A stretch of DNA of 64,000 nucleotides, taken from NCBI RefSeq assembly GCF_900103715.1, contig NZ_FNHL01000003.1:372001-436000 (forward strand), read 5' to 3'. This DNA comes from Halogranum gelatinilyticum (GTDB taxonomy: Archaea; Halobacteriota; Halobacteria; Halobacteriales; Haloferacaceae). Positions 3,117 through 61,504 of the stretch are shown here, in pieces (position 1 is the first letter of the stretch; every line of letters begins with the position of its first letter). The notes under the pieces were generated by a model. It saw nothing but the letters and a program-made list of their open reading frames with translations. It did not search any database and was not told the origin of the DNA. The position numbers and the translations under genes were made by a program.

Positions 3117-4001
3117 ATGAACGTTTGTGTGCTTGGTGCGGGCACGATGGGCCACGGCATCGCCCAGGTGAGCGCGATGGGTGGCCACGACGTGGTCCTC
3201 CGCGACATCAACCAGAACATCGTCGACGAGGGGCTAGAGCACATCCGCGAGAACCTCCAGGGCGGCGTCGACCGCGACAAGGTGACCGAGAGCGAGCGCG
3301 ACGCCGCACTCGACCGTATCGAGGGGACGACGGACCTCGCTGCGGCCGTCGCCGACGCGGACCTCCTCGTCGAGGCAGTCCCCGAGGACGAGGAACTGAA
3401 ACAGAAGGTGCTCGCGGAGGCCGAAGGGCACGCCCCCGCCGACTGCGTCGTCGCCAGCAACACCTCCTCCATCTCGGTGACGGGCATCGCGAGCGCGCTC
3501 TCGGACCCCTCGCGGGCCGTCGGCCTGCACTTCTTCAACCCCGTGCACATCATGGGGCTGGTCGAAGTCGTCGTCGCCGAACAGACAAGCGACGCGACGA
3601 GGGAGTTCGCCGAGGTGTTCGTCGAGAGCGTCGGCAAGACCGCCGTCGTCGTCGAGGACTCCCCCGGCTTTGCGACCTCGCGGCTCGGCGTCGCACTCGG
3701 CGTCGAGGCGATGCGGATGGTCCAGGAGGGCGTCGCCAGCCCCCGCGACATCGACGCGGCGATGGAACTCGGCTACAACCATCCGATGGGTCCTATTGAA
3801 CTCGGCGACGTGGTCGGACTCGACGTCCGTCTGGGCATCCTCGAACACCTTCGAGAAGAGCTCGGCGAGCGGTTCCGGCCGCCGACGATACTGCGAAAGA
3901 AGGTCCGGGCGGGGAAGCTGGGTAAGAAGTCGGGCGAAGGATTCTACGTCTGGGAGGACGGCGAGATCGTCGGTGTCTCTGGAGAGGTGGAGGATGAGTA
4001 A
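3117..4001 (+). CDS. 3-hydroxyacyl-CoA dehydrogenase family protein
   Basis: A 294-residue NAD-dependent dehydrogenase that oxidises 3-hydroxyacyl-CoA to 3-oxoacyl-CoA (or the reverse) in fatty-acid or hydroxybutyryl metabolism. The protein opens with the Rossmann motif GAGTMGHGIAQ, which fixes the start at MNVCVLG. Longer upstream reading frame is rejected because it reads through the divergent promoter. The catalytic histidine lies in HFFNPVHIM, and NHPMGPIEL is the conserved substrate-side motif of the C-terminal domain. The length matches bacterial 3-hydroxybutyryl-CoA dehydrogenases (about 280-290 residues). It overlaps the enoyl-CoA hydratase gene by 8 nt, so the pair forms a beta-oxidation module. 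Chain-length specificity cannot be read. Confidence 0.92.
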   Translation: MNVCVLGAGTMGHGIAQVSAMGGHDVVLRDINQNIVDEGLEHIRENLQGGVDRDKVTESERDAALDRIEGTTDLAAAVADADLLVEAVPEDEELKQKVLAEAEGHAPADCVVASNTSSISVTGIASALSDPSRAVGLHFFNPVHIMGLVEVVVAEQTSDATREFAEVFVESVGKTAVVVEDSPGFATSRLGVALGVEAMRMVQEGVASPRDIDAAMELGYNHPMGPIELGDVVGLDVRLGILEHLREELGERFRPPTILRKKVRAGKLGKKSGEGFYVWEDGEIVGVSGEVEDE

Positions 4002-4824
4002 CGACGACAGCTCATCGGTCCTCGATGTCGCCGCCGGCTGCGACCTCGTTCGCGTCGAAATCGACGCGCGCGCCGAGTACGTCGCCACTGTCACTATCGA
4101 CCGGCCGGAGGCCCGCAACGCGCTGAACGGCCAGATTCGCGACGAACTGAAGCGCGTCTTCGCGGCCGTCGCAGACGACGAGTCGGTTCGGGTGGTCGTC
4201 CTCACCGGAGCCGACGAGGCGAAGGCGTTCGTCGCCGGAGCGGACGTGAAAGAGCTGCGCGAGCGCGGCGTCGTCGAACAGCGCGAGGCGAGCGAGCGGC
4301 CGCGGGTCTACGAGGCCGTCGCCGACTGTCCCAAGCCGGTCATCGCGCGGGTCAACGGCCACGCCCTCGGCGGCGGCTGCGAACTCGCGCAGGCCTGCGA
4401 CGTCCGCATCGCCCGCGCAGACGCCAAACTGGGCCAACCCGAGATCAACCTCGGGCTGATTCCCGGCGGCGGCGGCACGCAACGGCTGACCCGTCTCGTC
4501 GGCCCGGGGCAGGCGATGCGGCTCGTGCTCTCGGGGGAACTCGTCGACGCGACAGAGGCGGCCGACATCGGTCTCGTCGAGGAGGCGGTCGCGCCCGACG
4601 AGTTGGACGCGCGCGTCGACGACCTCGCCAGAAAGATGGCGTCGAAGAGTCCGCTCGCGCTCCAGCGGGCGAAGGAGGCGGTGCAGGCGGCCTCGCGGCT
4701 GGACCTCGATGCGGGTCTCGACTACGAGAAGGAGCTGTTCGTCGGCCTGTTCGCGACCGAAGACAAGAACGAGGGCATCGACGCGTTCTTCGAGGACAGA
4801 GCTCCCGAGTGGCAGGGACGCTGA
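3994..4824 (+). CDS. Enoyl-CoA hydratase/isomerase family protein
   Basis: A 276-residue crotonase-fold enzyme that hydrates 2-enoyl-CoA to 3-hydroxyacyl-CoA. The oxyanion-hole segment AGADVKEL and the signature ALGGGCELAQACD followed by GQPEINLGLIPGGGG are complete. Both catalytic glutamates of true hydratases are present (GCELA and QPEIN). The start at 3994 lies inside the end of the dehydrogenase gene (8-nt overlap), which indicates translational coupling and a shared pathway. About 20 extra residues precede the crotonase core. Confidence 0.92.
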   Translation: MSNDDSSSVLDVAAGCDLVRVEIDARAEYVATVTIDRPEARNALNGQIRDELKRVFAAVADDESVRVVVLTGADEAKAFVAGADVKELRERGVVEQREASERPRVYEAVADCPKPVIARVNGHALGGGCELAQACDVRIARADAKLGQPEINLGLIPGGGGTQRLTRLVGPGQAMRLVLSGELVDATEAADIGLVEEAVAPDELDARVDDLARKMASKSPLALQRAKEAVQAASRLDLDAGLDYEKELFVGLFATEDKNEGIDAFFEDRAPEWQGR

Positions 4825-61199: not shown

Positions 61200-61230
61200 G
61201 GAGCTCGTTCACGTTGCGCCGAGAGAATCG

Positions 61231-61255
61231 AGTCCGCTCTCCCCGATTTGAACGG
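61231..61255 (+). repeat. Duplicated 3' end of tRNA-Tyr (attachment-like), distal copy
   Basis: A 25-bp exact copy of positions 61429-61453, which contain the 3' part of tRNA-Tyr (discriminator, acceptor strand, T-arm). Direct repeats of tRNA 3' ends are the standard scar of tyrosine-integrase elements (attL/attR). Flanking bases differ on both sides. Confidence 0.7.
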
Positions 61256-61386
61256 AGCAAGACATTCCTGCTCGCCTCGCTCCGCTCGGCTCCGCGGGCT
61301 GTGACTTGCAGGCTCAAATCGGTGCGAGGAGTCCTTCACATTCAACACCGCTCGCTGTCGTCGCCGGCGCACAGCACCGGCTGCCA

Positions 61387-61405
61387 GCGGAACCTTCGGT
61401 TCCGC
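61387..61405 (+). other. Hairpin GCGGAACC-TTC-GGTTCCGC
   Basis: A perfect 8-bp stem with a 3-nt loop in the space between the two tRNA-end copies. A 9-bp inverted pair TTCAACACC / GGTGTTGAA also flanks that space. It could be a remnant of an excised element or a structured RNA. Confidence 0.4.
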
Positions 61406-61428
61406 GTTGCTCGCTGGTGTTGAAGTTC

Positions 61429-61453
61429 AGTCCGCTCTCCCCGATTTGAACGG
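61429..61453 (+). repeat. tRNA-Tyr-proximal copy of the 25-bp repeat
   Basis: This copy lies within and just past the tRNA-Tyr gene, so the gene remains intact. The two copies start 198 bp apart, with only 173 nt between them, too short for a mobile element with its integrase. Confidence 0.7.
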
Positions 61454-61504
61454 GGGGCAAGCCGATCTACAGTCGGCTGCTCTGCCAGGCTGAGCTAAGA
61501 GCGG
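61431..61504 (-). tRNA. tRNA-Tyr (anticodon GTA)
   Basis: On the minus strand the cloverleaf is complete: acceptor CCGCTCT with AGAGCGG, discriminator A, D-arm GCTC/GAGC, anticodon arm GCCGA-CTGTAGA-TCGGC with anticodon GTA, and T-loop TTCAAAT. No intron is present. CCA is not encoded. A TATA-like TTCTTAAG (minus strand, near 61533) lies 29 nt upstream. Confidence 0.95.

Follow-up and report, generated by a model that had tools for sequence, protein, structure and literature searches.

Structured duplicates of the tRNA 3′ end recur downstream of tRNA genes in Halobacteriales

Introduction

The nearest known arrangement to the one analyzed here is found in Escherichia coli, where the rtT (rttR) repeats form tandem units downstream of the tyrT/tyrV tRNA genes, each unit closing with an exact duplicate of the 3′ terminus of the tRNA. 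In strain MG1655, perfect copies (19/19) of the 19 nt that end tyrV are found at +160, +338 and +516, with a spacing of 178 nt. The rtT units are proposed to be transcribed with the tRNA, the hairpin being a regulatory or processing RNA, and the Rfam family for these RNAs is named RtT. A tRNA 3′ end duplicated in direct orientation is also characteristic of the attL/attR attachment sites of integrated elements. According to the relevant sections of a review of archaeal recombinases (PMC8371274), the T-arm and the 3′ ends of tRNAs serve as attachment sites, and the genome paper on Haloquadratum (PMC3119063), in the passages concerned, takes partial tRNA copies as signs of prophages. Another partial parallel is the integron attC site, an imperfect palindrome with mismatches that belongs to permutable units; the main text of a paper on archaeal integrons (PMC9668308) contains neither 'Halobacter' nor 'haloarchaea'.

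Here we analyze a duplicated tRNA-Tyr end in a 64,000-nt stretch of the Halogranum gelatinilyticum genome (contig NZ_FNHL01000003.1, positions 372,001 to 436,000), hereafter the window. The duplicate belongs to a module that resembles each of these systems and departs from each. The E. coli repeats are confined to one operon, whereas about half of all tRNA genes are involved here; this comparison covers the 3′-end copies. Unlike attL/attR pairs, the repeats here are only about 100-200 bp apart, enclose no integrase or cargo, occur at many tRNA isotypes at once and contain a conserved internal palindrome. The outer boxes of the module end in GTT, which we take to be a recombination-like motif resembling that of attC; unlike attC sites and CALIN elements, however, the modules come without cassette genes or an integron integrase scoring above the cut-off, and their outer arms follow the adjacent tRNA. 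As with REP/BIME and MITE-like hairpin repeats, the inner hairpin is also found away from tRNA genes, but near them it is strictly oriented and embedded in tRNA-specific arms. No description of genome-wide haloarchaeal tRNA-tail modules was found in the literature searched, the coverage of which was limited and included few subscription journals.

Anatomy of the duplicated tRNA-Tyr end

The window contains a 25-nt exact direct repeat (61231-61255 and 61429-61453), the copies being offset by 198 bp; shuffling the 1,200 nt around it 200 times at the mononucleotide level gave exact direct repeats of at most 13 nt. Because tRNA-Tyr is placed at 61430-61504 by ARAGORN and at 61431-61504 by Rfam, the repeat corresponds to the tRNA 3′ end plus one base, and since the gene is on the minus strand, its second copy is located downstream of it. 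The locus consists of the following features, in order along the tRNA strand:

61430..61504, minus strand: tRNA-Tyr, anticodon GTA (ARAGORN; Rfam RF00005, 58.5 bits at 61431-61504)
61429..61453, minus strand: core copy 1, comprising the tRNA-Tyr T-loop, the 3′ strands of its T-stem and acceptor, and 1 further nt
61341..61424, minus strand: P1 trailer palindrome, with 9-bp arms at 61341-61349 and 61416-61424
61348..61415, no strand assigned: dispersed repeat B, within the P1 palindrome, including the perfect 8-bp hairpin
61233..61324, minus strand: P2 module (contig coordinates C3:433233-433324; covariance model R1, 83.3 bits, E 2e-16, this sequence being one of the 35 on which the model was trained)
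61314..61322, minus strand: inverted arm R″, complementary to the T-loop and the start of the T-stem 3′ strand
61231..61255, minus strand: core copy 2 (R′ arm and acceptor 3′ strand)
61201..61230, minus strand: P1b, truncated start of a second module, from comparison of this locus (L001) with L002 and L032

The initial annotation had identified the repeated 25 nt as the 3′ end of tRNA-Tyr and had found in the gap no integrase gene but a perfect 8-bp hairpin (61387-61394/61398-61405) and a 9-bp inverted pair. All of this is confirmed by the tRNA placements and by our own reading of the sequence. It had overlooked that the gap also contains two dispersed haloarchaeal repeats and, at 61314-61322, a T-arm copy in inverted orientation. 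Along the tRNA strand, the P1 pair with its inner repeat is followed by the inverted T-arm, the hairpin and the copied T-arm and acceptor, and it is these last three that make up P2, an imperfect palindrome built from an inverted T-arm, a conserved inner hairpin (class A) and a T-arm/acceptor copy.

The gap sequences in related genomes

A search for the gap sequence elsewhere, as the initial annotation had suggested, returned matches among 60 related genomes and showed that the gap consists of two dispersed repeats. P2 was matched in 27 and repeat B in 19 of the 60 genomes (the genome of origin included in both counts), the latter being multicopy in several. Among 30 fetched loci with P2-like matches, 27 contain a tRNA gene, and 12 isotypes are represented. 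The matches inspected lie 3′ of the tRNA and in the same orientation, and most come with a duplicate of its 3′ end; at L054, by contrast, the closest predicted tRNA is not the partner, and a few other copies are degenerate or interrupted. Considering tRNA-Tyr loci only, a copy matching at least 16 of 19 nt is present in 16 of 31. At four loci (L003, L005, L006 and L048), another kind of hairpin lies between the T-loop and the acceptor strand of the downstream copy, so that the acceptor part stands alone.

In relatives (e.g., L003, L004, L009 and L011), the P1 arms close a short loop. In the tRNA-Tyr trailers of genomes G001 and G029, too, the P1 arms enclose a short loop that lacks repeat B, which suggests that B entered the loop later. 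Repeat B itself is a dispersed hairpin family in its own right: G034 has four matches of equal score, and G028 and G015 have several.

Copied tRNA tails across haloarchaeal genomes

We counted tRNA genes followed, within 330 nt downstream, by a copy matching at least 16 of the 19 nt from the T-loop onward, with neighbouring tRNAs masked. Such copies follow 23 of the 50 tRNA genes identified by Rfam in the genome of origin (G000), 19 of 44 in a genome from another family (G059) and 23 of 65 in G001, where the count includes the tRNA cluster on contig C13, an apparently mobile tRNA array mostly without modules; in all groups, a single copy behind tandem tRNAs may be counted for more than one gene. 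This cluster (G001:C13:160615-164451; L168, L169) packs more than a dozen tRNA genes into about 4 kb and resembles the tRNA arrays of viruses and plasmids. Copies were also found for 2 of 11 tRNA genes from miscellaneous other Halobacteria, and for none of 75 tRNAs from non-halobacterial genomes of the same phylum, the latter being best-scoring matches, one or few per genome, rather than a complete census. A reversed-core control gave no copies in any group. Copied tRNA tails are thus a real, recurrent and lineage-specific feature.

Most copies lie 80-240 nt downstream of the tRNA. An inverted arm matching at 8 or more of 10 positions is located upstream of the copy in 18 of 23 cases in the genome of origin, 16 of 23 in G001, 17 of 19 in G059 and both cases from the miscellaneous Halobacteria, compared with none in a reversed-arm control. 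A link between modules and the T-loop variants TTCAA and TTCG (early p = 0.02 in G000 and 0.20 in G001) was dropped after the improved census yielded p values of 0.12, 0.12 and 1.

Copies follow the adjacent tRNA

At positions differing between tRNAs of the same anticodon in G000, G001 and G059, the copy follows its own tRNA 175 times and the other tRNA 3 times, and the inverted arm does so in a ratio of 50:11; these figures come from 86 comparisons that are not independent and in part involve non-orthologous tRNAs of the same anticodon, and they are somewhat inflated because copies were chosen by their similarity to the own tRNA (at least 15/19). The T-stem part of the inverted arm scored 3.27 of 5 against its own tRNA and 2.43 against permuted tRNAs (56 modules; 0/2000 permutations). 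The copy and the inverted arm thus co-vary with the tRNA that they follow.

Such tracking could reflect selection instead of conversion. The copies might, for example, be selected as decoy attachment sites that draw tRNA-directed viruses and plasmids off the tRNA gene. They reproduce the T-arm and acceptor, a usual archaeal attachment segment according to the relevant sections of the recombinase review (PMC8371274), and they track the tRNA, but a decoy leaves the inner hairpin unexplained, and we regard this explanation as very improbable.

Structure of the module

The inverted arm and the copy pair across positions 1-12, which comprise the T-loop and the 3′ strand of the T-stem, and pairing drops to chance level in the acceptor strand, as determined from the 57 of 65 modules with an arm matching at 7 or more of 10 positions. 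Between the arms lie inner hairpins of a few recurrent kinds that are common to different tRNAs. Their mean identity is 0.41 between different tRNAs within a genome and 0.35 between families, which is only suggestive of genome-specific hairpin types.

For the class-A hairpin, we aligned 35 tRNA-adjacent modules out of 50 non-redundant ones available. The 25-pair structure is satisfied in 87.7% of cells, compared with 76.5% in shuffles, and the covariation score is 0.323 versus 0.139 (0/500 shuffles), with slid versions of the structure reaching at most 0.110. Compensatory variation in the stem is also evident among 145 non-redundant hairpins, in which two stem positions are Watson-Crick paired in 89% of cases versus an expected 39-40%. 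Of these 145 hairpins, 112 retain a T-T mismatch; for both counts, the search pattern fixed several of the adjacent letters. The imperfect hairpin is thus conserved in structure more than in sequence.

The folded form could in principle be RNA: the trailer would be transcribed with the tRNA, the hairpin would act as a regulatory or processing RNA, and the inverted arm would be able to pair with the tRNA's own T-arm. Fragments of tRNA 3′ trailers have been reported in Haloferax volcanii, as mentioned, with reference to other work, in a passage of PMC3544259. The tRNA with its trailer has a folding energy of z = -5.59 relative to shuffles, to which the tRNA itself contributes, and the outer arms of the 35-sequence alignment show a G-T:A-C ratio of 25:6, a bias that would fit folding as RNA or as a single strand. 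The remaining strand tests conflict with this. The inner stems of the same alignment contain no G-T in 385 cells and one A-C, whereas tRNA acceptor stems, used as a control, contain 35 G-T and no A-C in 875 cells; G-T and A-C counts are unbiased across the 145 hairpins (16:22, inner) and in the outer arms of 57 modules (30:23). Moreover, the antisense strand folds at least as well (the sense strand is lower in 23 of 80 cases), and in the window no Rfam family other than tRNA, the RtT family included, reaches its gathering score. An RNA function thus appears unlikely, and we read the hairpin pairing as a structure at the DNA level, although the strand tests disagree.

We also considered a tRNA intron: the fold allows the module to loop out, with the distal copy then completing the tRNA. 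No bulge-helix-bulge motif was seen by eye, and this candidate was set aside.

Distribution of modules and inner hairpins

The module covariance model matched 37 of 40 Halobacteriales genomes and none of 156 other genomes of the phylum, so that in these samples the module is restricted to Halobacteriales. In the genome of origin, 9 of the 11 model matches are located within 200 nt 3′ of a tRNA on the same strand. A scan of named genomes with the hairpin pattern returned at least 118 stretches, and the 80 titles listed all belong to haloarchaea or haloarchaeal MAGs. Among the 86 pattern matches listed, 26 are located up to 450 nt away on the 3′ side of a tRNA on their own strand (1.1% expected at random), none lies 5′ on the same strand and one lies near a tRNA on the opposite strand; the T-loop motif is present in 19 of these 26. 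The other 60 of the 86 listed matches, many of them in Halorubrum, are located away from tRNA genes, and the inner hairpin is therefore a broader family, multicopy across the genome and independent of any one locus, as is typical of REP- or MITE-like repeats.

Away from tRNA genes, class-A hairpins were seen near the apparent start-codon junction of protein genes (L443, at C2:160781-160862, where the gene is ABC-transporter-like by eye, as well as L230, L238 and L248), again between inverted copies of local sequence. L222, L250, L268 and other Halorubrum loci contain a multicopy repeat, in places arranged in tandem, in which the class-A hairpin is flanked by the arms GAGCAC and GTGC.

Integrases, integrated elements and module order

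The module can be compared with a classical element in the same genome. An 8.5-kb integrative element occupies tRNA-Glu(TTC) (L144, G000:C2:135000-146500; approximately 137069-145612 in contig coordinates), with a tyrosine integrase adjoining the tRNA; it also carries an Eco57I-type restriction-modification gene of 1293 aa. Its core is longer than the module core, neither P1 nor P2 is found at its ends, and past its distal end there is a collapsed module. The genome encodes three Phage_integrase genes, which score 15.9, 20.9 and 18.2 bits against the integron-integrase model TIGR02249, for which the cut-off is 265. Three Y1_Tnp genes are also present; as candidate ends of a Y1 transposase, class-A hairpins were looked for, and none occurs within the fetched flanks of these genes.

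The initial annotation had interpreted the repeat pair as the scar of an integrated element that was nearly completely deleted. Integration does leave a direct repeat of the tRNA 3′ end, as observed here. However, an attachment scar should be sporadic and locus-specific and should retain remains of an integrase or cargo, or else share its ends with an intact element. Instead, roughly every second tRNA gene in three haloarchaeal genomes shows the same anatomy, no integrase gene or recognisable cargo lies between the repeats, and their content is a conserved, covarying core. Since the tRNA-Glu element, the one classical element examined, lacks P1 and P2, derivation of the module by deletion from an integrase-bearing element was rejected, and we consider a classical scar highly unlikely. 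The initial annotation itself had named recurrence of the same repeats with the same gap in many unrelated haloarchaea, at non-integration sites, as evidence against its proposal, and this is close to what we find: the arrangement does recur in many of them.

The order of modules within arrays differs between loci. In the same-genus genome G002, listed with 11% contamination, the same two module types stand in opposite order (a-b and b-a) at two tRNA-Tyr loci, in arrays of core-bounded units with a similar tail after each. The window locus corresponds to the first unit of such an array, and its second unit breaks off after about 30 nt; the counterpart of this P1b remnant in G002 opens a complete further unit. 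Either repeated unequal exchange or site-specific recombination could have produced the permuted order. At locus L236 (approximately 3900-4130, minus strand), the 3′ half of a tRNA-Tyr without its 5′ half is followed by a module; the half tRNA could be the distal boundary of an integrated element.

The initial annotation had offered, as an alternative, a small satellite using an integrase supplied in trans. In such a scheme, a tyrosine recombinase would insert the non-autonomous module at the T-arm and restore the tRNA each time. The core-bounded, gene-free units, their permuted order with the same kind of tail, and the inner hairpins common to tRNAs of many kinds are consistent with a satellite, and the T-arm, according to the relevant part of the recombinase review (PMC8371274), has the dyad form that such enzymes use. 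The copies, however, match the adjacent tRNA 175:3 in the biased comparison above, and hence give no sign of jumping between isotypes. No class-A stretch was found in the plasmids or phages searched and no module in the viral contigs of IMG/VR, the genome of origin has only the three integrase genes, none of which attains the integron-integrase cut-off, and the classical tRNA-Glu element has no P1 or P2 at its ends. We consider a satellite improbable.

Still more doubtful, in our estimation, is the idea that the tRNA genes of Halobacteriales anchor an unrecognised form of DNA-hairpin recombination. T-arm-mirrored hairpins, attC-like and folded as single strands, would be recombined at the T-loop by a putative enzyme, with short units being captured, permuted and re-matched genome-wide to the individual tRNAs and the tRNA restored every time.

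Discussion

The explanation that we favour, and to which we give about an even chance, is that the repeat pair is one unit of a Halobacteriales-specific 'tRNA-tail module' that is generated and homogenised locally, in step with the tRNA. The copy is the right half of an imperfect DNA palindrome of which the inverted T-arm is the left half and a member of a recurrent hairpin family the middle. We infer that copies arise locally at each tRNA gene by tandem copying of the tRNA end and trailer, probably through replication template switching or recombination at the T-arm. Gene conversion between nearby copies would then keep them identical to the tRNA, correction within the palindrome would maintain the match between the arms, and the inner hairpins would spread as a separate hairpin family. 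The module in the window would be the first of probably two units, the second cut off after about 30 nt, with repeat B inserted in the P1 loop. No newly forming module was seen in the genome comparisons, which were made at the genus level and above. By analogy, the tRNA-tail module is best read as a counterpart of the E. coli rtT repeats that is genome-wide and T-arm-mirrored. A plausible predicted consequence is that the modules provide tRNA-directed integrases with spare attachment sites.

Around half of the tRNA genes in the haloarchaeal genomes counted are thus accompanied by a duplicate of their own 3′ end, which is structured, specific to the tRNA concerned and co-evolving with it. Three ideas about it, a decoy site, a recombination platform and a trailer RNA, are made testable in Haloferax. 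If general, the finding would bear on annotation, because partial tRNA copies are easily read as integration scars, on how polyploid archaea keep nearby repeats identical, and on the interplay of tRNA genes with integrating viruses and plasmids.
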